A stretch of DNA of 36,441 nt from Kiritimatiellia bacterium (GTDB lineage Bacteria > Verrucomicrobiota > Kiritimatiellia > RFP12 > UBA3636), in contig JAFUOX010000075.1 of NCBI GenBank assembly GCA_017481725.1, forward strand, positions 1-36,441. Reading direction: 5' to 3'. A program made the translations under genes and the position numbers. The notes beneath the pieces are model-generated. The model did no database searches and had not been told where the DNA came from. It saw nothing but the letters and a program-made list of their open reading frames with translations. Positions 297-18,364 of this stretch are shown one piece after another; the stretch's first letter is position 1, and each line of letters begins with the position of its first letter.

Positions 297-2339
297 TTAT
301 TTTTCTTCTATATCTTTGCTATCAGATATTGCTTCTACACTCTTTGGTGCAACACGTTGCAGCAACTCATTCGTTGCTCGCTCACTCTCCAATGGTGTGC
401 AAATAACATGTGGGCGAATCAATATAATCAACTCAGAACGCTGCTTAACTATCTCTGTACTACGGAAGAGAAAACCAATTAGAGGAATGTGTCCTAAAAT
501 TGGCACACGAGAGATTTGCTCTGACTCTGTCTCTGTTATCAAACCACCAATACCAGCAAGTAAACCATCCTGTGTAATAAATGTGCCACTGATGCGGCGA
601 GACTGAATGGTGTCAACACTATAAGTCTGCAATGAGCTTGCATTGCCATAAGGGATAGAACCTCCATTCTTTTTAACAGATGACTCCTCCTGCATTAGGC
701 GTAGCATTACACTGCGGTCCGCATTAATATTTGGAGCAATCACAAGTGTTGTGCCAATAGGTGTCATCTCTATTTGAGGCTCAACTGTATAGCCAATTGT
801 TGATGTCATACCATCAATTGTACCCATCACTGGCTCCATTGTCACACCTGTGGTAATTGGTTTCTCTTCACCAATAAAAATACGAGAAACCTCATTGTTA
901 GCAATCAAAAGTGTCGGTGTTGCAATAACCTTTGCTTTACCATCCTTCTCCAGCAACTGAATGCGAGCACTAAATTTATCACTAATCAATGAATATGAGA
1001 AAGAATCTGTGCGTGGAGTATTTGCCAATGGATTAAAGCCTGGAAAACCCGCCATTGAGGAATATAGATTTCCATTTACTGTATTCTCAGATTTAATCTC
1101 ATACTCAAAGGTTGAATTAAATTCATCATCAAGAGTAACCTGAACAATCTTCATCTCAAGCATTACACTTGGTGTGGCAACGTCTAGCTTCTTAATTAGC
1201 TCTGCAATTTCATCCATCACCTTTGGATCACTTGTACGAACAATCATAATATTATTTTTGCGACTAATTGTAACAAAAATGCTTGGAGATTGATTACGGA
1301 ACAAATCTAGTTTTTTGCGAAATTCTGCTTCATTACCGCGAGCTGCCTCTAATTGTGCTGCTGCCTCTGGTGACATACCGCCAAAGCTCTCCTTATTAGA
1401 ATAATCATCAGAAATATTACGATTGTGATTATCTGAAGAGTTAAAGGTGTCTGTGCTTGAGCCTCTGACGGAAATATTACCCGGATCTATTGCTAAGAAA
1501 GAACTTGAACTAGATGAATCAATCATCTCAAGACGCTCGAAGCGGCGGCTTAGGTCGCTCAATTCATCATCAAGAATATCATTCTCACCTAGGGTTAGAT
1601 AAACACGTTCTGGATATAACCCATAAATAACAGAAGCAATCTCAACAACATTTGGATAAAGAAGAGTGAAGGTGCGAGTTTGTTCCTCACGGAAGGTTTG
1701 TAGGCTACCTTCATACTCAGCCATTGTTGTGATGCGAACAATACCTGTCTTCTCATCTGCTCTATACCATAGATTATGTGCTCTACATAGCTCCTCTACC
1801 ACAACATTGATTGGAACATTACGTAGGAAAACAGATACAGGAATTTTTGCTGCCTTTTGTGATGCAGATATATTTACACCTATCTGCTCAGAGAGTAGAC
1901 GAACAAGCTGACCCAGCTCAAAGTTATTTGCCTCTACATGTGTAAGGCAAGACTCTGCGGCTTCTGTCTTTGTAGCATTACTTGCTAGCTTATAGCTTGT
2001 GCCAATCCAAAGCTCTTGATTTAAGGTTGGTGCTTCTAGCTGAACGCCCTCAGCAGTAATAGATTTGATATTAAGCTTTATTGGCACACCAGAATACTCA
2101 TACTGGATAGCAGAGCTTGGGCGAACAAAAAATGTCTTTCCATTTGGTGCAACAACTATTGCCACACCACCATCTGCTTGACCACACACTAAAGCACCTA
2201 AAGAAAAGCTCTGAAGCTCTGTTAGCTGAGCCTTAATCTCATCTGCAAGCTTCTCTGGTGCCGCTGTTGGATCATTTGCAAATAAAGTGCCCACACAAAA
2301 AAGTAGACTGATACCTGTAACTAATTTATTTCTTTTCAT
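297..2339 (-). CDS. gspD: Secretin (GspD/PilQ family), outer-membrane pore
   Basis: Forms the outer-membrane ring through which a type II secretion or type IV pilus-like machine passes its substrate or fibre. The N-terminus is a signal peptide (MKRNK followed by a hydrophobic stretch ending near LFAND). A short N-domain with FLRNVPINVVVEEL lies around residues 145-205, then an N-domain near TLLYPNVVEIASVIYG, a Ser/Asn-rich low-complexity insert (about 265-325), a further N-domain (FVTISRKNNIMIV) and the C-terminal secretin domain with the family's VPILGHIPLIGFLFRS motif. I chose the ATG at 2339 (680 aa) because AAAAGGA sits 5 bases upstream; an ATG at 2360 would add seven residues but has a poor ribosome site. 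It is the last gene of the pseudopilin operon, 33 bases after gspF. Whether it is GspD or PilQ cannot be settled; no PilQ-type AMIN domain is seen. Confidence 0.93.
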   Translation of the reverse strand: MKRNKLVTGISLLFCVGTLFANDPTAAPEKLADEIKAQLTELQSFSLGALVCGQADGGVAIVVAPNGKTFFVRPSSAIQYEYSGVPIKLNIKSITAEGVQLEAPTLNQELWIGTSYKLASNATKTEAAESCLTHVEANNFELGQLVRLLSEQIGVNISASQKAAKIPVSVFLRNVPINVVVEELCRAHNLWYRADEKTGIVRITTMAEYEGSLQTFREEQTRTFTLLYPNVVEIASVIYGLYPERVYLTLGENDILDDELSDLSRRFERLEMIDSSSSSSFLAIDPGNISVRGSSTDTFNSSDNHNRNISDDYSNKESFGGMSPEAAAQLEAARGNEAEFRKKLDLFRNQSPSIFVTISRKNNIMIVRTSDPKVMDEIAELIKKLDVATPSVMLEMKIVQVTLDDEFNSTFEYEIKSENTVNGNLYSSMAGFPGFNPLANTPRTDSFSYSLISDKFSARIQLLEKDGKAKVIATPTLLIANNEVSRIFIGEEKPITTGVTMEPVMGTIDGMTSTIGYTVEPQIEMTPIGTTLVIAPNINADRSVMLRLMQEESSVKKNGGSIPYGNASSLQTYSVDTIQSRRISGTFITQDGLLAGIGGLITETESEQISRVPILGHIPLIGFLFRSTEIVKQRSELIILIRPHVICTPLESERATNELLQRVAPKSVEAISDSKDIEEK

Positions 2340-2372
2340 ATTTATCCTTTTAATCAACATATATCCGTGTAT

Positions 2373-3599
2373 TTAGCTCATTGTACCCATTGTAAACAAT
2401 GCCATAAAGAAGGCGAGATACACAAAGCCAACGATTAGACCTGTGATAATAATCATTACTGGCTCCATTATCACGCTCAGGCGTCGAACAACTATACCCA
2501 AAAGCGTATCATGAAATTCTGCAACCTCCTTAAAGGTCTCTGAAAGATCACCCGTGGTCTCCGCCACAGCAGTCATGCGCGAAAGCATTGGCATAAATTC
2601 TTTTGCTGGATGCAATGCCTCTGCAAGAGATTCGCCCTTAATTACACCTTCACGTGCAGCAACAACGCGTGCACGAAGTCTGCGGTTATTAAGCATATTT
2701 GCAGCCACATGTAGAGAATCTACCAGAGGAACACCGCTCTCAATCAAAAGAGCCATTGTTCTTGCAAAGCTTGTTGTAGCAGAAAGCCTCAACACCTTAC
2801 CGGCTATTGGCAAACGCACCAATAGCGCATCCTCTAGCTCACGACCTATCGGATTCATTCTAACCACAATCCAAACTAAAATTGCACCACCAATAATTAG
2901 ACAAAGAGGCATTGAATTTAAATGAAGCCAATTTGACACATCGACAAGAAATTGAGTAATCGCTGGTAATTCAACATTACCTTGTTTAAGAAATTCTGCC
3001 ATCTTTGGAATAACCGAAGCCACAAGATACACTGCCACACCAACAGCAAGAATTAAAGCTAGCACTGGGTAAACCAAAGCATTCAAGAAGGCCATTCGTA
3101 GCTTGCGCTTTGCTTCAAGCTGATTTGCTGCTCTTGTAAAAACTTGCTCTAGCTCTCCAGTGCGTTCACCAGCAATAGTAAGCTGAATCTGCTCCTCAGC
3201 AAATATTCCTTTTTCTGCTGCCATCGCATCTGATACACTTAAGCCCTGAGAAATGCGCTCACGCACACGAGCCCAAACGAGAGCTGCTCTAGGACTTTCA
3301 GCTTGCTCTTCAACGGTTTGCATAGCAGCAACAATTGGGACGCCACTCTTGAGCATATATGCTAGCTCACGCAAGCCTAGCTCTATATCAAGAGAGCGCA
3401 CTGGCTTTAGCCAAGAAAGCGAATACCATGGTGCATTAATTGGACTCTTTTCAGCTGTTTTTCGAATCTCAGATAGCTCAATAATCACATTACCCTCAAG
3501 GCGCAATTGCTCAGAAAGGATACTCGATGAGGCTGCCTCTCGAGTACCTGTCTGCACCGTGCCAGAGCGTGTTTTGATTTTATATGAAAATTGAGCCAT
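2373..3599 (-). CDS. gspF: GspF/PilC-family inner-membrane platform protein
   Basis: Polytopic inner-membrane protein that couples the cytoplasmic ATPase to pseudopilus assembly. At 408 aa it has the usual family length, with two homologous T2SF domains (about 70-195 and 275-400). The first contains ELAYMLKSGVPIVAAM and the second FARTMALLIESGVPLVDSL, the internal repeat typical of the family. Membrane segments are visible near residues 170-195, 230-247 and 378-404. It lies 47 bases after gspE and 33 before the secretin start. The start ATG has no strong Shine-Dalgarno sequence. PilC and GspF cannot be separated by sequence alone; the neighbours suggest a hybrid machine. Confidence 0.93.
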   Translation of the reverse strand: MAQFSYKIKTRSGTVQTGTREAASSSILSEQLRLEGNVIIELSEIRKTAEKSPINAPWYSLSWLKPVRSLDIELGLRELAYMLKSGVPIVAAMQTVEEQAESPRAALVWARVRERISQGLSVSDAMAAEKGIFAEEQIQLTIAGERTGELEQVFTRAANQLEAKRKLRMAFLNALVYPVLALILAVGVAVYLVASVIPKMAEFLKQGNVELPAITQFLVDVSNWLHLNSMPLCLIIGGAILVWIVVRMNPIGRELEDALLVRLPIAGKVLRLSATTSFARTMALLIESGVPLVDSLHVAANMLNNRRLRARVVAAREGVIKGESLAEALHPAKEFMPMLSRMTAVAETTGDLSETFKEVAEFHDTLLGIVVRRLSVIMEPVMIIITGLIVGFVYLAFFMALFTMGTMS

Positions 3600-3646
3600 A
3601 TTTATTTTCTATTCTTTCTCTAACTAACACTAAAGTTAAAGCACAA

Positions 3647-5140
3647 CTAAAATGTATTATTATTTATTGCTTTCATTGCTTCAGCGACACTTGTTACACC
3701 AGCCTGAATTTTTGCTATAGCATCATCAATGAGAAAGCGCTGCTTTCCTTGCTTCATTCCTTCAATCAATTCGCCAAGTGGAGCATCTGCTGCAATCTGC
3801 TCTGCAAGTGCAGCTGTCGGAAGCATAAATTCAAACAACCCTACTCTGCCAATATAACCTCTGCCTGAGCAAGCCAAGCAGCCACATGGTTTATATGCAT
3901 CTACTCCTGCAAGCTCTGGGCGACCTAAGCAATTCGCCTCATCTTGAGTAAGTGCATATTTTTCTGCGCATTCTGGACACAAGCGACGAACCAAACGCTG
4001 TGCAACAGACAAGCGAAGTGTCGCTGCAATCAAGTGTGGCTCAAGCCCCATATCACGCAAGCGTGTTACAGCACTTGCTGCATCATTTGTGTGAAGCGTT
4101 GAAAGCACAAGGTGGCCCGTAAGTGCAGCCTTAACTGCGGCATCTAGTGACTCTGCATCGCGAATTTCGCCAATCATCACCACATCTGGGTCATGGCGTA
4201 AAAGGCTACGAAGTGCTTTTGCAAAGTTTACCTTATCACTGCTATCAACCTCAACCTGAGAAATACCCTCGGTTTCATACTCAATAGGATCCTCAACTGT
4301 GAGAATATTTAGTGATGCAGTTTCTAGCAGATGATGAATTGAAGCATAAAGCGTTGTTGATTTACCTGAGCCTGTTGGACCTGTTAGAAGCACAAGACCA
4401 TGAGGACGAGCTAAAACACCTGTTAGCTGATTGTGATGCTCCTCGCTGAGCCCCAAATCATTAAGATGGATGCGAGAGTTACCCGTCTCAAGCAAGCGCA
4501 TAGTAATGCGTTCTCCATAGCGTACAGGAAGAGTTGCCACACGCACATCGTATGGGTGAACCTTGCTTCTAGTATTTGTTGATGCTGGTGGCACCCATGT
4601 AAACGAGCCATCTTGGGCAGCTCGTTTTTCAGCAATATCAAGCCCAGCAAGCACCTTTATACGGCTGCAAATTGCAGCCTGTATGCTTTGTGGGAGAAGA
4701 GCAAATTCCTCAAGGATTCCATCAACACGGAAACGAATACGCAAGCCAGTTCTTGATGGTTCCACATGAATATCGGAGGCTTGGCGGATTACAGCAGCAC
4801 GAATAAATGAATCAACTATTGCCACAGGATCATCTGATGCTTCCATTGCTGTGGCAGTGTCCATTGCTCCACCACGAGCATCTCCATAAACACGGAGCAA
4901 AGCTTGGCGAAGCTCCGCCTGATCAGCAGCAACAGTACGCACATGCAAGCCAGTTGCTGCCTCGATAGCAGAAACCGCCTGTGTATCTGAGCTTTCAGCC
5001 ATTGCAACTATTAGTTCATTTCCAAGCTTACAGATAGGCAAAGCAAGTCTGCGCATAGCAATTGCAGGATTTATCTGCATTGCCCAGCGAGGATCAATTT
5101 GTAATGTTTCTAATGAAACTTTTTCTGGTAACTCTTTCAT
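3647..5140 (-). CDS. gspE: GspE/PilB-family secretion ATPase
   Basis: Cytoplasmic hexameric ATPase that powers pseudopilus/pilus extension. The Walker A motif GPTGSGKST is at residues 254-262, the Walker B region [11 protein letters not shown] near 320-330, the His box [13 protein letters not shown] near 342-354, and the zinc-binding cysteines are CPEC (388-391) and CLAC (421-424). The N-terminal domain is short (about 90 residues) compared with the two PilB proteins at the right end of the window, so the protein is 497 aa. It follows a PilT-like ATPase gene by 71 bases and precedes gspF, the usual gspE-gspF order. AGGAAGAG lies upstream of the ATG with a spacing of about ten bases. Confidence 0.94.
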   Translation of the reverse strand: MKELPEKVSLETLQIDPRWAMQINPAIAMRRLALPICKLGNELIVAMAESSDTQAVSAIEAATGLHVRTVAADQAELRQALLRVYGDARGGAMDTATAMEASDDPVAIVDSFIRAAVIRQASDIHVEPSRTGLRIRFRVDGILEEFALLPQSIQAAICSRIKVLAGLDIAEKRAAQDGSFTWVPPASTNTRSKVHPYDVRVATLPVRYGERITMRLLETGNSRIHLNDLGLSEEHHNQLTGVLARPHGLVLLTGPTGSGKSTTLYASIHHLLETASLNILTVEDPIEYETEGISQVEVDSSDKVNFAKALRSLLRHDPDVVMIGEIRDAESLDAAVKAALTGHLVLSTLHTNDAASAVTRLRDMGLEPHLIAATLRLSVAQRLVRRLCPECAEKYALTQDEANCLGRPELAGVDAYKPCGCLACSGRGYIGRVGLFEFMLPTAALAEQIAADAPLGELIEGMKQGKQRFLIDDAIAKIQAGVTSVAEAMKAINNNTF

Positions 5141-5211
5141 CTCTTACTAACTCTTCCTGCGGCATACGCATCTTGAGGCTGAGGTCTCAACCATCAAATG
5201 CTTTTACCTCA

Positions 5212-6297
5212 CTATCTCTGTTGGATACTTTGCTGTTCTTTATAGGTCTCTGATGAGATTCTTCCACTATTGTATAGCTGATTAACTGATTCCTCAAAGG
5301 TAATCATGCCAGAGGCACGGCCTGTCTGCATCATAGAAGTAATTTGACGAGATTTGCCCGTTGCAATCAAATTAGCAACCGCTGGAGTAACAAGAAGCAG
5401 CTCATTGCTTACAACACGTCGACACCCCTCTTCCTTGCCAGGAAGAAGTCTCTGAGCGAATACACCGCGCAGTACAAGCGATAGCTGTTGGCGTATACTC
5501 TCCTGTTCTCCCTCTGGGAACACTGCCACAAAGCGCTCTATTGCGCCAACTGTATCACCAGAATGCAAGGTTGTAAATACTAAGTGCCCCGTTTCAGCAG
5601 CAGTAATTGCAGTACGCATGGTTTCAATCTCACGCATCTCTCCAACAAATATTGTATCAGGATCTTGACGCAATGCTTCGACCAAAGCAGAATTAAAATC
5701 AACGGCATCGCGCCCAATCTGACGCTGCTGCACAAGGCATTGCTTTGATTTATGGATGTATTCAATAGGATCCTCAATCGTGATAATGTGTCCCGGTCGA
5801 GCAGAATTTATCATATCAAGAAGGGTTGCAATTGTTGTGCTCTTACCTGAGCCTGTTGGACCTGAAACAATTACTAAACCATGTGACATTTTACAGAAGG
5901 CCTCTAGCTGTTCTGGCAAGCCTAGCTGACCAAGTGAAAGAAACTCATCATCAAGCCTACGAAGTGCAATACCGTAGCCATTATTCTGCTTAAAAATATT
6001 AAAGCGATAGCGTGAACCTGCTGGGGAAGACACTGCACCATCTATTGCTCGAGCAGAAGCAAGGGCCTTAACACTTGCATCCTCGCTATCTTCTCCATTC
6101 ATTCCCAACATCAAAGAAAGAGCTAGATCAAAGCTTTGTTCTGTGGAAATCACATCAAAACTTTGCATTACAGATAGCTTACCATGTATGCGAAGATATG
6201 GAGCTTCTCCACTTGTAATATGAATATCAGAAGCAAGATTTGCCTCGCAGCATTCAAATAACTTCAAAAAAATTTTATTCATCATATAAAACACCAT
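5212..6297 (-). CDS. PilT-like retraction-type ATPase inside the secretion operon
   Basis: A 361-residue ATPase of the PilT/GspE superfamily. It has the short PilT layout: an N-terminal PAS-like domain starting SDIHITSGEAPYLRIHGKL, Walker A GPTGSGKST at 146-154, Walker B FVGEMREIETM near 217-227, and GHLVFTTLHSGD near 237-248. It lacks the zinc-binding CxxC pairs of GspE/PilB. The C-terminal retraction motif of true PilT (AIRNLIRE) is only loosely matched by AVANLIATGK. Three bases separate it from the PilO-like gene. ATGs five and six codons downstream are alternative starts; none has a clear ribosome site, so translation may be coupled to the gene before. A PilT-type motor within a gspE-gspF-gspD operon suggests a retractable fibre rather than a plain T2SS. 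Confidence 0.88.
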   Translation of the reverse strand: MVFYMMNKIFLKLFECCEANLASDIHITSGEAPYLRIHGKLSVMQSFDVISTEQSFDLALSLMLGMNGEDSEDASVKALASARAIDGAVSSPAGSRYRFNIFKQNNGYGIALRRLDDEFLSLGQLGLPEQLEAFCKMSHGLVIVSGPTGSGKSTTIATLLDMINSARPGHIITIEDPIEYIHKSKQCLVQQRQIGRDAVDFNSALVEALRQDPDTIFVGEMREIETMRTAITAAETGHLVFTTLHSGDTVGAIERFVAVFPEGEQESIRQQLSLVLRGVFAQRLLPGKEEGCRRVVSNELLLVTPAVANLIATGKSRQITSMMQTGRASGMITFEESVNQLYNSGRISSETYKEQQSIQQR

Positions 6298-6300
6298 TTT

Positions 6301-6993
6301 CTACAAAACAACCTGTATATACCAAAGCTTTTTGTCACTACTTGTTGGAGCATTTGCCATACTAATTACCTCAATTACAAGAGGGAGTTGTTCCTGCTCA
6401 CACTTCTTTAGCATTGCTGAAAGCGCACCAAAATTTGCCTCAACAGAAAATCCCCAACGCTTACAATCAGGATATTGTTCTGACAGTGCAGATAAAAGCG
6501 TATTCCCTTTGGTAGAAGCATTAGAAGTTGGAATAAAATCAAGCTCCTCTTCAAGAGCAGAAGCTGCCATTATTTTTTGTCCATCATTTTTAAGTGCAGC
6601 TGCAGATACGATTTTAATTCCATTAGAAGCCAACAGCTCACGAAAAGCATTAATTCTCGCCCCAGACACAGAGCAAAATGCTTTTCCACGGCAAGCATCC
6701 ACACCACAAACTTCACAAGTCTTCTCTGCCTTAGAAGCACCATTTACTTGAACTGCAGGTGATTGCTGCTCCTTATATGCAGCAAGCTCCTCCTTTGCTC
6801 TTGCCAGCTGACTATCTAAAGAAGTCTGCTGAGCCATTATATCCTCCTCAGAACCCAACTGCTCAATATGCTCTGAATAAGCATTGCAATCATTATGTAG
6901 TCCAGCTCCCCACACCCAAGCATATATCGCAACAATTGCGATAGGTAGAGCAAACAAGGAAAAGACTTTATCGCGATTAGTAATTGCTAGCAT
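6301..6993 (-). CDS. PilO/GspM-like assembly protein with a cysteine cluster
   Basis: Not recognised at family level by sequence alone; position and architecture point to the PilO/GspM role, bridging the inner membrane to the periplasm. There is one N-terminal membrane helix (about residues 11-29), then a coiled-coil segment (about 40-77), then a small alpha/beta region ending the protein (230 aa), as in PilO. Unusual is a cluster of four cysteines after the coiled coil (C93, C96, C101, C107; spacing CX2CX4CX5C), predicted to be outside the cytoplasm. GGAGAAG is eight bases before the ATG. It lies directly behind the PilM/N-like gene (3-base gap), which matches the pilN-pilO order. Confidence 0.7.
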   Translation of the reverse strand: MLAITNRDKVFSLFALPIAIVAIYAWVWGAGLHNDCNAYSEHIEQLGSEEDIMAQQTSLDSQLARAKEELAAYKEQQSPAVQVNGASKAEKTCEVCGVDACRGKAFCSVSGARINAFRELLASNGIKIVSAAALKNDGQKIMAASALEEELDFIPTSNASTKGNTLLSALSEQYPDCKRWGFSVEANFGALSAMLKKCEQEQLPLVIEVISMANAPTSSDKKLWYIQVVL

Positions 6994-6996
6994 GAT

Positions 6997-8157
6997 TTAC
7001 TTCTCCTCTCCTGAACTATTTGACACAGCTAAAGCTTGCTTTTCAACAAATGCCTTAACTGCATTCTGCTCATTATAGTGCAATAAAACACAAAACTCAT
7101 TTGCAGACTTCTGTCCTCGACTTTGTGTATCGACAATCCAACCCATCTTGGCAATACCATTCTTGGAGAGTGCCTCATAGAAGCGTAGCTCAGCATCCTT
7201 ATGAACGCTAAAAAGCTTCAGAGAAACACAATCAGGAGCACAATCAATTCCTTTAACAAAAACAAAATCACCGCATGACTCTGCCACAATTGAGAAAAAG
7301 CTATTCCAAGCCATATGGCGTGCACCTAGCATTGTGCAAGCACTGCTTGCACCAGCGTCTTTCTCCTGTAAAGTTTTAAGCTCATGCTTTATTTTTGCAA
7401 TGGCATTTCTTGTTTGATTAAGCTTTGCCACTGGAGCTTCAAGCTTTGCAAGCTCTTCCTGCTTGCCTTTAAGAATCACCTCAGAAAATACAAAATAGTG
7501 TAATCCGCAAAGAAGTATTACAGCAACAGCAATTCGAACCATCAAGCGCTTAAACGCATCGGGAGAAAACTCCGCAATTCCAGCGGCAAACCCTTTAGAA
7601 GCGACATCCTTTGTAATAATCACTGGCTGTGATTTTGCAAGGTCTGTAAGCGATGCTGTAGCAATTGCCTTGAGTCGTGACTCTATCTCCTCTGCACTCT
7701 CAAAAGCAATAGCGGCTTGCATAATGGCCTTTAGCTCAACAGAATTAGCACGCCCCACACGCAAAAGCTCACCAAGCTCAGCTTCTGCCAATTCAATTAC
7801 AGCAAAGCCAGCTCCCTTTGGAGCAAAACCAAGCACACATGATTGTGGAGATATTCCCGAAAAAGGCTCTACCTCATAAGCTAGCACACTGCTTAGCTCA
7901 TTTTTTGTCAACCCCTGCTGCTGTGCAGCAGATAGCCCAACCTCTTGATAGAAGCAATCTGAGCTCAGGAGTATAAGCTCTGCCTTCTTGCGAATAGCAA
8001 AGCAATTAGAAAGCACAGCACCAAGAATCTCTGCTTGGGTACTTGCAGAAGGTCTTTCAAGCTGCACAAGCTTACCTTCCTTAACAAGGTAAGCCCACAC
8101 ATCAGTGCGACCTAGCTCAAGAATTATTTGCTCATTTTTCTTACAATTAATTTTCAT
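6997..8157 (-). CDS. PilM/PilN or GspL-like assembly protein
   Basis: A bitopic protein of 386 aa. The first 200 residues are soluble and look like the actin-like fold of PilM/GspL: LELGRTDVWAYLVKEGK near the start, then SSVLAYEVEPFSG, a typical PilM/MshI element. One membrane helix follows (about 206-226, VRIAVAVILLCGLHYFVF), a coiled coil (about 230-270), and a PilN-like periplasmic domain. The layout equals a PilM-PilN fusion, which is what GspL is. The start ATG overlaps the stop of the pseudopilin gene upstream (ATGA), so translation is coupled. It probably forms the cytoplasmic platform for the ATPases with its PilO-like neighbour. Confidence 0.75.
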   Translation of the reverse strand: MKINCKKNEQIILELGRTDVWAYLVKEGKLVQLERPSASTQAEILGAVLSNCFAIRKKAELILLSSDCFYQEVGLSAAQQQGLTKNELSSVLAYEVEPFSGISPQSCVLGFAPKGAGFAVIELAEAELGELLRVGRANSVELKAIMQAAIAFESAEEIESRLKAIATASLTDLAKSQPVIITKDVASKGFAAGIAEFSPDAFKRLMVRIAVAVILLCGLHYFVFSEVILKGKQEELAKLEAPVAKLNQTRNAIAKIKHELKTLQEKDAGASSACTMLGARHMAWNSFFSIVAESCGDFVFVKGIDCAPDCVSLKLFSVHKDAELRFYEALSKNGIAKMGWIVDTQSRGQKSANEFCVLLHYNEQNAVKAFVEKQALAVSNSSGEEK

Positions 8158-9179
8158 TGTGTAATAAGAGTTGACGGAATTGTAATCTTTAACCGATAAG
8201 TCTGATAAGTGCTTTGACCATTTGGCAATGGCGTCAGTTCAATGGTTTGGTACCACACTCGCCCAGTAGGCTTATACTTAACAACCAATGGATATGTACC
8301 CACTGGAACTTTACTAAAATCAAATTGGATGCAATTACTTACCGGAGTTGTGGCAGGGTCTTGCTCCACAATCTTTATCTTTGCCACATTATCCTCTATG
8401 TATGGAAGATAGATGCGTGCAACAAATAAGCCACCACCAGTCAACGCATCCACTGGCACAGCTGCTCCAGATGCTGACTGAAGCTCGAACTCAACTGGCA
8501 AATCTGCATAAGCATTAAACATTGCTGCACCATCACGCTCTGCTACATTCTTTGGAGCAACAAAATTGTCTGGCCGAGCATCTGCACCAAAATGCACCAT
8601 GCCACCAACCTCAACACCAGCAGAAACAACAGCATTTGAATTTACATCAACAATGCGACCATTCAACAGCGCTGCATCAGGGGCAGACATCACATTGCCC
8701 CAAGCATCAAAAAGAACGCCTGACTCAGTTGCATTAGCCGCTACGCTCTTAATATATGGGCCTCTCCAACCAACCCCAAGACGCACCAAAGAATCCATTT
8801 CATTATCATACGCTGGTGATAAGCTGCTACGCTCAGAAGCAACCTTATCAGCAAGAGCAATCTGCTTATATGCTGGGAGCATTCCTTGAGCAACAAGCTC
8901 TGTGACAGCGTATGCTGTGCGATCCGTGGCAGAGTCCTTCCCCTCAAGCACAACTGATAAAGCATAAGGCAAGCGACCCATTGTACCCACAAAGGATTCT
9001 GCTGCTCCAAGCTCTGTTCCAACCACTGCCTCAGTAATTGCCTTGAGATCCTTCTCTGCTTGTTCATGCTTTTTGCTCTTTACTGTATCTAGCATATGGA
9101 CCATGGCAACATTTGTGACGATGGCCAATATCACAAGCACAAGAACAAGCTCAATAAGGGTGAAGCCTTTATTCTTCAT
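8154..9179 (-). CDS. Long GspG-like pseudopilin with C-terminal beta domain
   Basis: A type IV prepilin-like protein. The class III leader is MKNKG, with cleavage expected between G5 and F6 and the conserved Glu at +5 (FTLIELVLVL). The GspG-like part contains VGWRGPYI (136-143) and DAWGN (158-162). After residue 210 there is an additional domain of about 130 residues rich in alternating hydrophobic residues (for example VPVGTYPLVVKYKPTGR), which looks like a beta-sandwich; ordinary GspG is only about 140-150 residues. I chose the ATG at 9179 because GGGAGG is six bases upstream; an ATG two codons earlier leaves no spacing. The start overlaps the end of the preceding pseudopilin gene by 11 bases. 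Confidence 0.85.
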   Translation of the reverse strand: MKNKGFTLIELVLVLVILAIVTNVAMVHMLDTVKSKKHEQAEKDLKAITEAVVGTELGAAESFVGTMGRLPYALSVVLEGKDSATDRTAYAVTELVAQGMLPAYKQIALADKVASERSSLSPAYDNEMDSLVRLGVGWRGPYIKSVAANATESGVLFDAWGNVMSAPDAALLNGRIVDVNSNAVVSAGVEVGGMVHFGADARPDNFVAPKNVAERDGAAMFNAYADLPVEFELQSASGAAVPVDALTGGGLFVARIYLPYIEDNVAKIKIVEQDPATTPVSNCIQFDFSKVPVGTYPLVVKYKPTGRVWYQTIELTPLPNGQSTYQTYRLKITIPSTLITQ

Positions 9180-10137
9180 AGACATCCTCCCTCATAAGAA
9201 ATAGCACAACATCATCCCCACGAGCCTTAATGCATGGAGAACCATCATCATCAAGAGTGCGGCCAGCAAGCAATAGCATGCGATATTTTTCTTTGCTATC
9301 GCTTGGCTGAAATAGCTCTGTGGAATATGCTGGGTCAGGATTTACAAAACAAGGAGTATCTAGCACACCATCAGGTCCTGCAGAAACAATGCGTGCATAC
9401 TTAAATCTTGTGGCAGAGTACTCATCCTCATCTGCCTCACTTGGTGAAAGAGCCTCAACAGCCTCTGCAGGAGGAATCTGAATAACATATGGGTTTCCCC
9501 AAGGATCGCCCATCGCTAATTCACCTGGCACACCATAAGATATGAAAGAAGCTCCACTTCCCTCAGCATCTGAAAGCTCCTGCTCATATCCCGCAGGGAA
9601 AAATCGACGGTCTAAAAATGTTTTATCTGCTGCAAAACGTTTATCCGAGGCCTTTGGGAAAAGCATATCTGCATTATCCCAAAGCTGTACTGGCTTCACG
9701 TTGCGAATATATGGACCATTCCAACCATGCTCTGTCTGTGAATTGAAATTTGTAAAAGCATAATAGCTCGCACATGAAGTAAGCTCTGCTGCAGCAACAT
9801 CATCATAAAAATAAAAGCGCTCATTACCAACTGCTGAGCATGCAAGCACCACTATATTTGTGCGATTTAATAGATTATGCGGACGCATAAACACAGGCGT
9901 AAAGCCAGGAAGCTCCTGCATATCAGCCAAATAGCAAGCAGGGCCAGCCTCTGAGCCAATAATTGCCCCACGCATTGCTTGCATATCTGCTTCAGCAGCG
10001 GTAAGCATAGCTTTTTCGCGTTGACCCTTAAAGCCAGCAACGGCAATGGTCACCACTATGGCTATAATGGTGACAACCGCCAATAGCTCGATTAGCGTAA
10101 ACGCTGCATTTTTGTGTGTAAATCTTGTATTTTGCAT
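9169..10137 (-). CDS. Long GspG-like pseudopilin, first gene of the secretion operon
   Basis: Prepilin-like protein of 322 aa with the leader MQNTRFTHKNAA, cleavage expected between A12 and F13, and Glu17 at +5 in FTLIELLAVV. The -1 residue is Ala, not the usual Gly. GspG-type hallmarks are present but spread out: HGWNGPYI (137-144), DPWGNPYVI (211-219) and SAGPDGVLD (252-260), the last resembling the calcium-site region of GspG. Large insertions separate them, doubling the usual length. It is the first gene of the operon. No Shine-Dalgarno is seen; a TATAAT lies just five bases before the ATG, so a leaderless transcript is conceivable. It could be the major pseudopilin or a specialised tip/minor one; no short major pilin is encoded here. 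Confidence 0.85.
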   Translation of the reverse strand: MQNTRFTHKNAAFTLIELLAVVTIIAIVVTIAVAGFKGQREKAMLTAAEADMQAMRGAIIGSEAGPACYLADMQELPGFTPVFMRPHNLLNRTNIVVLACSAVGNERFYFYDDVAAAELTSCASYYAFTNFNSQTEHGWNGPYIRNVKPVQLWDNADMLFPKASDKRFAADKTFLDRRFFPAGYEQELSDAEGSGASFISYGVPGELAMGDPWGNPYVIQIPPAEAVEALSPSEADEDEYSATRFKYARIVSAGPDGVLDTPCFVNPDPAYSTELFQPSDSKEKYRMLLLAGRTLDDDGSPCIKARGDDVVLFLMREDVYEE

Positions 10138-10249: not shown

Positions 10250-10406
10250 CTATGCGTGACAAGCAATAGAATGTTCCGCACAAGATTCTCATTTCTAGTC
10301 TAGTATAGATAATGCACCAGAAAAGACAGCAATGAAACTAATCAAAATTGCGCTTATTTCGCATTTTTCTAAACTAACCGCTAACAACTTGCCTATACTG
10401 CGAAAA

Positions 10407-10504
10407 GACCCTTCTGTATATGATTAACTGTATATAATTGACTGTTGGCTGTGGGATGTGTTAGACTGTATGCGTCATGAGGAAGAAACATATACAGAAG
10501 GGTC
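10407..10504. repeat. 16-bp perfect inverted repeat pair
   Basis: GACCCTTCTGTATATG at 10407-10422 is repeated exactly in inverse orientation at 10489-10504 (CATATACAGAAGGGTC), with 66 bases between. The right arm runs into a second palindrome (10498-10512). The composition changes from AT-rich to GC-rich directly to the right, so the pair sits at the left border of the island gene. Confidence 0.85.
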
Positions 10505-10512
10505 CGACCCTT
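10498..10512. repeat. Palindrome AAGGGTC-C-GACCCTT
   Basis: A 7-bp perfect inverted repeat around a single central base, overlapping the right arm of the larger inverted repeat. A related GGGTCAGAC occurs at the other end of the island (11936-11944). Such GGGTC/GACCC palindromes resemble short repeats near single-strand (Y1/REP-type) transposases; that link is a recollection, not shown here. Confidence 0.6.
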
Positions 10513-10523
10513 TTATGCCCTCT

Positions 10524-10544
10524 AAGGACGCAAAGGACGCAAAG
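10524..10544 (+). repeat. Tandem 9-base repeat AAGGACGCA
   Basis: Two exact copies (10524-10532, 10533-10541) followed by a partial one, ending 13 bases before the start codon of the plus-strand gene. The pattern resembles a 'GACGCAAAG' intergenic repeat found in many bacterial genomes. Its purpose is unknown; here it forms the leader of the foreign gene. Confidence 0.6.
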
Positions 10545-10557
10545 AAAGGAAGTTAAT

Positions 10558-11886
10558 ATGGATATGAATCGGATACGCCAGTTTCTGTCGAGGACTGGCT
10601 TGGGGATGTTCCTCGTCTGGGGATGCGCTGCGGTTCTGTTCCTCGCAGCCGTAGTCGTCTCGCCCTTTTTGGGCAAGGCGGATGTGGTCGTGGGCGTTGC
10701 CGCGACGGTAGTTTTCGCTGGGACGTCCCTCTGGTATGTTCTGGTGTTTCTCGTGACTTTGGTGAAGCGGCAATGGAAGAAATCGGCGATCATGTTCGTT
10801 TCGGGCGGCGTAGGCGCGTGTCTGCTCGCCGTGGGCTTCGGCTTTGCAGTGGCGCTCAACTTTTGGTCCGCTGCGGTAAATTGGGAGAAGGGGAAAGAGA
10901 AACCGCGTTTGGTGGGAGTGCCGGGCGAAGATGGCAAGATGGCGTTCTCAGTCGAATACGTCAACGCCCATCCGTTCCTTGCCGAGTACGACAAGACGAT
11001 TGTATTCAAGTCCGGCAAGCGCATAGGCGTCTGGATGGATACCGGCGGCGCGGGGCCGTTCGCGGTGTACAGTCTTCCGACGGGGGAATACTATCTTGTG
11101 GACGGTCTCAAGCACAGTTTCATCCGCCACGATTATCGCGTCAACGTGACGAACGAAACGGTGGAAATGATGACAGACGATACATTCTGGATCCGCATTC
11201 CCGATGGTACGCTTGCGGTTGTCGGAGGGGGTGGAAATTCCATCGACGTCAATACGTCGGATGAAAAATACAAAAATGTAGAAAGCAAGTTCACGTCGGT
11301 GGGCGATTCGCTTTCGCGCCGCAAATACCTCGGTTTAATACATCCGAGCGGCGAATTCGAGAAGTCCGACGACGGTAAAGACCCGTATGTCGGCATAATC
11401 GAACCGAAATGGACTGCGGTGGATGCCGGCGCCGTAAATCTGCCGTTCACGCTGGAATGGCGCGACAACAAGAACAGATGGAGCAGGCAATGGCGCATTG
11501 CGACGGTTTCAGGCAAGCATTTCGGATTGTTCCGTGCAGGGGAGTTCGAGACGTGTTTCGTATATGTCGGCGCACCTGGAGTGTATCGACTTCATTTCGT
11601 TTCCAAGAATGGGTGGATGTCGGATATGTTTGACAATGAATACAGAATCGATGCAAACAGTGAAAAGGTCGAGATGATTGTCGGCGGATTCCTTTTGCGT
11701 ATCCCGCCAGGAACTATTGATATATCATCGTTCGGTATGAACGGAAACCATGCGCACTTGACGGCGGTAAGCGAGAACGGGACGCAGATTGAATCTGATG
11801 AATCCGTTCCTGCAAGCGAAGACGGATACCAGTACATGCTTGTTGGGTCCATCAATCATGACGGCAGATTCCTGCCTTGCCCTTGA
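10558..11886 (+). CDS. Unknown membrane protein with tandemly duplicated external domain
   Basis: Not recognised. It is the only convincing plus-strand gene, and its codons are clearly GC-richer than all others here. From the ATG at 10558 (AAGGAAG six bases upstream; 442 aa) there are three membrane helices (about 15-37, 42-69, 77-102), then an exported region built of two copies of a roughly 140-residue unit. Copy 1 (about 130-267) and copy 2 (about 297-438) align along their length: FSVEY/FTLEW at the start, VEMMTDDTFWIRIPDGT (202-218) against VEMIVGGFLLRIPPGT (371-386), and YLGLIHPSGEF against LVGSINHDGRF at the end. No catalytic motif is seen. The base composition, the flanking repeats and a truncated frame behind it suggest transfer. 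An upstream in-frame ATG at 10480 has no ribosome site. Confidence 0.75.
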   Translation: MDMNRIRQFLSRTGLGMFLVWGCAAVLFLAAVVVSPFLGKADVVVGVAATVVFAGTSLWYVLVFLVTLVKRQWKKSAIMFVSGGVGACLLAVGFGFAVALNFWSAAVNWEKGKEKPRLVGVPGEDGKMAFSVEYVNAHPFLAEYDKTIVFKSGKRIGVWMDTGGAGPFAVYSLPTGEYYLVDGLKHSFIRHDYRVNVTNETVEMMTDDTFWIRIPDGTLAVVGGGGNSIDVNTSDEKYKNVESKFTSVGDSLSRRKYLGLIHPSGEFEKSDDGKDPYVGIIEPKWTAVDAGAVNLPFTLEWRDNKNRWSRQWRIATVSGKHFGLFRAGEFETCFVYVGAPGVYRLHFVSKNGWMSDMFDNEYRIDANSEKVEMIVGGFLLRIPPGTIDISSFGMNGNHAHLTAVSENGTQIESDESVPASEDGYQYMLVGSINHDGRFLPCP

Positions 11887-16072: not shown

Positions 16073-18364
16073 CTATTTTGCACTTTTTGATATTTTTTTC
16101 TTAACAGCTTTTACAGTATTAAATACTTGCTTAATTTCCGTTGTTCTAGGATTCTCTCGAGTACCTGCGTAATAAATTCGCAATGTTATTGGCATTGGCT
16201 TTGGTTCCTTGAAGCTTTGCATTTGTGCATCTGTTAAAATAGTATAACTAGGCTCAGATATTCCTTTTATTTCTATCACATCTACACCCTGTACTTTCTT
16301 GTTCCAATAATCAGCATCACCAGCCTTTAAGCGTTCTGCCTCTGAAGCAAATTCTCGTGGAACCTCCTTCAAATATAGTTCAATTAATTTTTGCATAGCA
16401 ACTGCATCACCAAGTTCAGCAGCACGCTCATACCAGTGGTAAGCTGCTTCATTAGACTGATTGGCTTCTCCCTTGAGGAACATTGTTCCAAGGTTTACCA
16501 TTGCATCTGCACGAAGTACAAAATGAACACGTGTATTATTAGCTATTTTGCGATACCAATTTACTGCTTTGGAATAATCCTTTTGAATATATTTCCCTTT
16601 ATAATTTAGTTGAGCAAGCATCAACTGAGAAGGGATATGATCGGCAGAAGCAAAGCGTTCAATCGAATTAAAGAGAACAGGAAATTCTTTTTCCTTTGGC
16701 ATACCCCGTCCTTCTGAAATGAAGTATAGGATACGATTCATAGCATTAACGGAGCTAGCATTAAAGCCATTCTCTGCTCTAATTGCAAGGCGCCAATAAT
16801 TCATAGCTCTGACATCATTTTCTACTCTATCACCTGTTGTTTTTTGAGCATACAAATCACCAAGTATTAGACTGGCCTTAGCTATATCTTTATTTGCCAA
16901 TTTATCAAGAATTGTTTCTGCTTCAATACGCTGTGGCTCATAGCCAATTCCGGTGAACATTAAACATGCACGCCAAAACTCAATTTCAACATCAAATTTA
17001 CATTGCTCATCATAATAGCTTATATTTTTTTGGACAAGAGCAGTAGCTTCTTCACGATCTTGCTTAACGCCATCCAATCCGAACCAAAGCATAATTGCAT
17101 AACGAGCGGCAGCAAGAGGATTAGTTGCCTTATGAGTAATCAATTGTTCAACGGAATAATACTCCACGAACTGAGGAAGCTTAGCTGCACCCTCTGCTAA
17201 TTCTTCTTCACCAATAATTGAAATAGCAGAATACTCGTCTCCTTCATTCATTGTTCTGTTGATTAGAGAATCCTGTTCATGCTGGTACAAGAAATATGCA
17301 ATAGCACCGCAACAAGCAACAATAAAAAGCATAAGAAGCACAAACTTTGAGTTGCGCATCATTTGCTGATTTAGAGTATCATGCTTTTGGCGAGAATGGC
17401 GGCGCTGTTTACTAAATGCACTCTTGTGCTTATGCTTATGGATATGAACCTTTTTTGCATTATTTGAAACTGCTACATCTGTTTGTTGATCTTCTGATGA
17501 TGAAGACTCATCACTATTCTCATTATTTGAAGCAGCCCTTTGAATAAAATCCTCTACAGTGCAGCGTGGATAATACTTAATTCCATTTTTTGAAAATATT
17601 TCTAGGACATCAAGATAAAGCTGGCAGGCAGCATCATATCCATCTAAATTCTTTGCTTTTTCTGCGATATCCAAAAGTGCTGGCTTTGCATTTACCCAAC
17701 TACGGGAATTCTCAGTTGCCGCATTAACGACCTTTTCAATTAAACGGCCAGCTTCAACAACATCAGCCTTTATAGCCTCTGATGGAATTACATTATCTGG
17801 CCACATAATTGTAGGAATGCGAATAACAACACCAACAGGATTAGATTGCTTATCTAATGATGGGTTTGAAAAAGAGCTTCCAACATACATATCGTATGCA
17901 TGAAGATTAGAAACCGTTTCTAATACATCATACAAAACTAGAGCACAATCATCCCCTGCCAAGCCCCCAGTTGTCTGGCTCTCAGCAATCAATGAATCTA
18001 AATCAAAAACAAGTTTATAATGCTTTTCTTGATTATCTTTGCAATTTATATCAGTAAATAGATGAACCTGCTTTAGGCCAGTTTGTCTTTCTGTACGGAG
18101 CCAACGAAAGCCATCAGTTTCTCCCGCAGCAAAGCTTTTAGTAATACATGGGCTTTGGAGTTTTCTAAGCTTTTTAATATACTCATTTAACGCCTCAACC
18201 GTGATTGAACTATCTGATGGGAGAATATGAAGTGCATATTTGCGGTTTGTGGACCCAAAAATCACAGAATACACATCACCAAAGGCACTTTTCCCTATGT
18301 ATTCTATAATTTTGTGTTGTCCTACTTTTTGTCCATGAATAAGCTGCATATTATTTAGCTCCAT
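16073..18364 (-). CDS. Membrane pseudokinase with Sel1/TPR-like repeats
   Basis: A 763-residue protein with three parts. Residues 15-265 follow the Ser/Thr kinase fold: the glycine-rich loop reads IGKSAFGDVYSV, but the strand-3 lysine is replaced (YALHIL, His46), the HRD loop is lost (LHAYDMYVGSSFSNPS near 154-169) and no DFG is found (VVIRIPTIM near 179-187). A His/Lys/Arg-rich linker (307-328) precedes one membrane helix (341-360). The outer part has Sel1/TPR-like repeats, clearest at YSKAVNWYRKIANN and NEAAYHWYERAAELGDAVA. A catalytic kinase is unlikely; a scaffold or receptor role is an inference. It starts 12 bases after secA. An ATG five codons in (18349), with GGAG upstream, is an alternative start. 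Confidence 0.75.
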   Translation of the reverse strand: MELNNMQLIHGQKVGQHKIIEYIGKSAFGDVYSVIFGSTNRKYALHILPSDSSITVEALNEYIKKLRKLQSPCITKSFAAGETDGFRWLRTERQTGLKQVHLFTDINCKDNQEKHYKLVFDLDSLIAESQTTGGLAGDDCALVLYDVLETVSNLHAYDMYVGSSFSNPSLDKQSNPVGVVIRIPTIMWPDNVIPSEAIKADVVEAGRLIEKVVNAATENSRSWVNAKPALLDIAEKAKNLDGYDAACQLYLDVLEIFSKNGIKYYPRCTVEDFIQRAASNNENSDESSSSEDQQTDVAVSNNAKKVHIHKHKHKSAFSKQRRHSRQKHDTLNQQMMRNSKFVLLMLFIVACCGAIAYFLYQHEQDSLINRTMNEGDEYSAISIIGEEELAEGAAKLPQFVEYYSVEQLITHKATNPLAAARYAIMLWFGLDGVKQDREEATALVQKNISYYDEQCKFDVEIEFWRACLMFTGIGYEPQRIEAETILDKLANKDIAKASLILGDLYAQKTTGDRVENDVRAMNYWRLAIRAENGFNASSVNAMNRILYFISEGRGMPKEKEFPVLFNSIERFASADHIPSQLMLAQLNYKGKYIQKDYSKAVNWYRKIANNTRVHFVLRADAMVNLGTMFLKGEANQSNEAAYHWYERAAELGDAVAMQKLIELYLKEVPREFASEAERLKAGDADYWNKKVQGVDVIEIKGISEPSYTILTDAQMQSFKEPKPMPITLRIYYAGTRENPRTTEIKQVFNTVKAVKKKISKSAK

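Follow-up and report, generated by a model that had tools for sequence, protein, structure and literature searches.

A Horizontally Acquired Gene in a Kiritimatiellia Genome Encodes a Predicted Membrane Protein with Two Unequal Tandem β Units

Results

A lone, GC-rich gene on the plus strand

The window analyzed here is a contig of 36,441 nucleotides from the draft genome of a gut Kiritimatiellia bacterium. A single plus-strand open reading frame stands against 26 long genes counted on the minus strand, as a first-pass annotation of the sequence had noticed (Table 1). AAAGGAAG precedes its ATG, and the homology of close relatives starts at that same residue; an alternative in-frame ATG is present at 10477. 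The annotation had also described the gene as richer in GC than all its neighbors, and this proved correct: its GC content is 53.8%, against a mean of 41.6% and a maximum of 46.1% among 26 neighbors. The difference is sharper at third codon positions (GC3 of 64.5% versus 30.2 ± 3.4%, z = 10). A search for further copies, which the annotation had proposed, found no other in the 104 contigs of the genome.

Table 1. Coordinates of features at the locus, numbered along the window
Feature	Positions	Strand	Basis
Inverted-repeat element (REPIN/MITE-like), 117 nt; 16-nt perfect arms 10407–10422 and 10489–10504	10402–10518	.	Folding, genome comparison
Tandem GGACGCAAAG leader repeat; G071 homology starts inside	10524–10544	+	DNA comparison
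Foreign segment, 94% identical, gapless, to G071:C478	10529–11925	+	DNA comparison, 1,397 bp
CDS, 442 aa; membrane protein with three helices and two β units	10558–11886	+	ORF translation, AlphaFold2
Predicted membrane helices, residues 14–38, 41–69, 73–111	10597–10890	+	AlphaFold2; positive-loop topology
Unit 1, with conserved loops	10933–11373	+	Unit profile, loop scoring
Conserved loop HPFLAEYD, residues 138–145	10969–10992	+	Alignment, loop scoring
Conserved loop DTGG, residues 161–164 (NTGG in distant relatives)	11038–11049	+	Alignment, loop scoring
Unit 2, degenerate; strand order same, first loop lost, second not kept	11437–11883	+	Profile, strands, loop scoring

A membrane anchor followed by two unequal units

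The AlphaFold2 model (30-row alignment; mean pLDDT 88.4, pTM 0.76) consists of three helices followed by two all-β units. The helices are those that the first-pass annotation had taken for membrane helices, and the prediction bears it out. The loop between the second and third helices (VKRQWKKS) is positively charged, as it is in most homologues, which places the units outside the membrane and, by prediction, the N-terminus inside. By this prediction, from the helices and positive-inside loops, the protein has an N-terminal membrane anchor with the units outside.

The two units, of about 145 residues each, align end to end, as had been claimed. Their Smith-Waterman score is 87; 2,000 shuffles gave 29.4 ± 4.8 and at most 60 (z = 11.9). 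A unit profile matches unit 1 at E = 3.6e-65 and unit 2 at 5.3e-41, with the qualification that both are rows of the profile, which is dominated by first and single units. In the AlphaFold2 secondary structure, predicted strands b1–b13 of unit 1 (residues 128–269) pair in order with those of unit 2 (297–440).

The units are not equivalent. The HPFLAEYD loop lies between b1 and b2 of unit 1, and the DTGG loop lies between b3 and b4. First units match HPFLAEYD at a mean of 0.94, single units at 0.60, and second units (n = 12) at 0.01; the loop is gone from all 12 second units, while first units and most single units keep it. DTGG is mostly lost as well (0.25 in second units versus 0.97 in first units). 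The scaffold strands remain recognizable, with matches of 0.83, 0.64, and 0.46 in first, single, and second units. Unit 2 of the present protein reads KN-RWSRQ and -AGE at the two loop positions. The first-pass annotation had argued from the duplication to a binding or structural role outside the membrane. Binding on that side is plausible, but since the first loop is missing from all the second units, duplication by itself does not point to two binding sites. The pair is presumably one working unit and a degenerate scaffold copy, rather than two equal binding units.

In a tree of units, a weakly supported branch (75/84) sets the second units apart, and long-branch warnings apply; one sequence labeled as single among them (L088) is actually a second unit. 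A single old duplication would be the simplest reading of this tree, which falls short of proving it.

Even across very distant members the residues H, E, Y, D, and GG hardly vary, and it is exactly the second copy that lacks them. This pattern would suit an envelope enzyme, with His, Glu, Tyr, and Asp of unit 1 as its catalytic site and unit 2 as an inactive copy. We think this unlikely: no enzyme family was matched, some single units lack parts of HPFLAEYD (lowest match 0.12), and the strongest invariants of the unit are Gly, Phe, Ser, and Pro.

Local resemblance to β-propeller blades

The predicted model was compared with the PDB using Foldseek. The best matches are mostly β-propellers, led by the prolyl endopeptidase 3iun (E = 6.1e-06, probability 0.99), and short segments superpose on adjacent blades, as with the trilobed protease propeller 2gop_A (Z = 5.7, rmsd 3.1, 81 residues). 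What is alike is a succession of antiparallel hairpins, with about 80 residues superposing. The protein might thus be a propeller in pieces, with roughly three four-stranded blades per unit and the ring closed by the two units or by a dimer of one-unit proteins. That arrangement is improbable. Propellers such as 2gop and 3iun are closed rings of four-stranded blades with no sequence relation to the gene, and over the whole chain the TM-scores are only about 0.15, with rmsd of about 22 and no Z of 8 or above. A structure search with a distant relative likewise returned local blade-like matches and no global fit.

The flat, single-layer β-sheet protein OspA of Borrelia was also among the matches, which likewise speaks against a propeller. 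It has a comparable long run of β-hairpins, but the Foldseek matches are weak (E of 1e-3 and above, TM about 0.1), and OspA has neither membrane helices nor a sequence relation to the gene. Sequence search of the PDB gave nothing significant. As possible relatives, stomatin and GPR156 (PDB search; E = 0.04 or worse), the uncharacterized protein 4h0a (E = 0.0096), and Pfam matches to the β-sandwiches of EMC7 and NOMO (E of about 0.1) were rejected.

A patchy family within the phylum

The annotation had not recognized the unit, and neither copy matches a known domain in Pfam, NCBIfam, PHROGs, PADLOC, or the PDB. The whole protein has no family in Pfam (E up to 1), NCBIfam, or PADLOC, and its best PHROGs match has an E value of 9. 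When 12 single units were searched against Pfam, no family was common to more than two of them; the best match (E = 7e-4) concerned one unit. We therefore refer to the HPFLAEY-unit family, as defined in this analysis. Its scaffold is a unit of about 145 residues with the b1–b13 order and the motifs SGKR, VY.L..G.Y.L, YRV, ETVE, IP.G, and YLG, all of which apply to the present protein.

By profile search, 29 of 346 genomes in the class contain the unit; a joint profile of the Kiritimatiellae and distant sets located it in 34 of 388 genomes of the phylum, and genomes outside the phylum were covered only by a short-pattern scan of contigs. The two sets match each other profile to profile (probability 99.0, E = 3.1e-18). 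The distant proteins, from a sample of other families of the phylum, are about 320 residues long. Like the present protein, they have membrane helices followed by a β unit, here marked by HPFLAEYDYR and NTGG, by a conserved Asp, and by YxGC at the end; they differ in having four predicted helices, a single unit without duplication, and Asn for Asp before TGG. The anchor varies further among members: some have three helices and others four, the N-terminus is lipoprotein-like or secreted in some (lipoprotein-like in L006 and L008), and in L072 it is large and soluble. The family appears to be undescribed and patchy in the phylum, and it is absent from the profile libraries searched.

Broken-frame or truncated copies occur at L089, L080, L082, and L013 (genomes G235, G284, G069, and G062), which suggests rapid gain and loss of the family.

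No recurrent operon partner was found among the neighborhoods of the distant set. In the Kiritimatiellae, an AAA_14/DUF4143 ATPase gene adjoins close copies in G071, G235, and G244 only. As there is no conserved neighbor, the gene product probably works alone.

A standalone gene that is patchily spread, exchanged between gut lineages, set in shifting neighborhoods, and decayed in relatives could be an orphan immunity protein, one that neutralizes a rival's toxin at the envelope and is kept and exchanged as rivals share the toxin. We doubt this, as neither a toxin gene nor a toxin-immunity array could be recognized next to any copy, PADLOC returned nothing, and loops conserved across the phylum are unlike a diversifying immunity surface.

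Transfer from another family

The nearest copy of the gene is on contig C478 of genome G071 (JAFUDL010000084.1, Kiritimatiellae bacterium RGIG4394, roe deer omasum; locus L043), which is classified in a different family within the order. The match stops sharply at both ends. Two congeners of the window's genome lack the gene, their homology stopping on either side of it, and carry both flanking blocks on different contigs: a type IV pilus/prepilin block on the left and a lipocalin/SIR2 block on the right. Codon use, a comparison that the first-pass annotation had recommended, fits the genes of G071 far better than the gene's own neighbors (−1.06 versus −1.52 log-likelihood per codon). The foreign look that the annotation had reported is thus upheld by the 94% identity to a genome of another family, the GC3 outlier, codon use, the absence from both congeners, and a left flank composed of repeats that are dispersed in other families. 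We infer that the gene came into this lineage from an unsampled relative of the genus of G071, the direction resting on composition.

Homologues on phages, viral contigs, and plasmids were sought without a confirmed match; a single weak match, to an Aeromonas plasmid, was rejected because it runs antisense to an annotated gene. A Lokiarchaeota match was likewise rejected as a different protein with the peptide NWEKGKEK in common.

The inverted-repeat element upstream of the gene folds with z = −3.4 relative to shuffles. In another family of the order, many genomes carry the arms and core of this element, there as parts of elements of about 180–630 nt; there is no other copy in its own genome, and no transposase for it was found. 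It looks like a MITE or REPIN. Because the element is dispersed in the other family and single here, the foreign block probably starts at or before 10402. At the place of the leader repeat that follows, G071, G244, and G235 have a longer leader in common (...GCCAATGCCAATGACCAG...CCGCAAAG...). On the G071 contig, several unrelated genes are preceded by a leader repeat of about 93 nt (at 3441, 5516, 7126, and 9860) that contains GACGCAAAG and a ribosome-binding site, and variants of the 9-mer tandem are present in dozens of genomes across the class. AGGGTC(A/C)GAC flanks were considered as a target-site duplication and rejected: the third copy in the genome is within an unrelated gene, and the right-hand one may thus have arisen by chance.

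The insert adjoins a type IV pilus/type II secretion-like cluster (297–10137) with a secretin, a T2SSF protein, two T2SSE ATPases, and prepilin-like genes.

Compared with the G235 homologue, dN/dS is 0.24–0.29, which indicates coding constraint in the family. Compared with the nearest copy, it is 0.43, and 0.85 for unit 2 alone on 12 changes, so that the case for selection in the new host is weak. These last two values, together with the single copy, codon use without amelioration, and the broken-frame relatives in other genomes, would agree with a functionless passenger that was carried in with mobile repeats and is now decaying in its present host. Against this, the reading frame is intact with a ribosome-binding site and the family overall is constrained, and we judge a mere passenger to be an unlikely outcome. 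An assembly or binning artefact, in which a foreign read cluster was joined into the contig, could be imagined for a short, compositionally distinct segment in a draft genome, but it is very unlikely, as the segment lies inside a 36-kb contig with host-like DNA on both sides and its 6% difference from the only close copy means that it is not a copy of the G071 strain.

Relative to the nearest copy, the unit 1 region (10888–11412) has a dS of 0.23 and unit 2 only 0.03, and DNA similarity to remoter homologues is limited to about 10935–11231, within unit 1. Homologues may have exchanged unit 1 separately, or this unit may be under strong constraint; both would fit.

Discussion

We favor the reading of a recently transferred accessory gene, the product of which would sit in the inner membrane and, through its tethered tandem all-β units, bind something outside the cytoplasm; taken whole, it comes close to, if slightly short of, an even chance of being right. 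The identity of the gene and its transfer are very probable. The role as a membrane-tethered extracytoplasmic binding protein is put forward tentatively, and we would sooner expect it to fail than to hold. The locus represents a single-gene transfer between bacterial families for which both the flanking repeats and the closest copy can be identified.

In the favored reading, the three N-terminal helices would be only an anchor, holding the two tandem units on the periplasmic face. The HPFLAEYD and DTGG loops of unit 1 would lie together and form the working surface for a ligand or partner protein; this two-loop surface, which comes from the predicted model, is our candidate site, although the conserved motifs might just as well serve catalysis or have a purely structural role. 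Unit 2 would act as a scaffold that completes or stabilizes the β assembly, like a pseudo-dimer, and the gene product would be a self-contained, exchangeable envelope binding protein.

The gene itself is ordinary in kind, a horizontally exchanged envelope protein without an assigned ligand being a common kind of thing. What the definition of the family supplies is a profile and two candidate functional loops. It may be that the phylum holds an undescribed extracytoplasmic family with its own two-loop site, a receptor or enzyme exchanged among gut lineages as a single gene, which one lineage duplicated into a working unit and a pseudo-unit; we rate this possibility somewhat below even.

Two further genes deserve mention. 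In the window, a 763-residue protein (16073–18364, minus strand) has Sel1 repeats and a weak, sub-cut-off match to a protein kinase at its N-terminus. In another genome (G561:C282; L133, 1290–1748), a short gene encoding the helices of the distant relatives without the β unit lies directly before a full-length member of the family.
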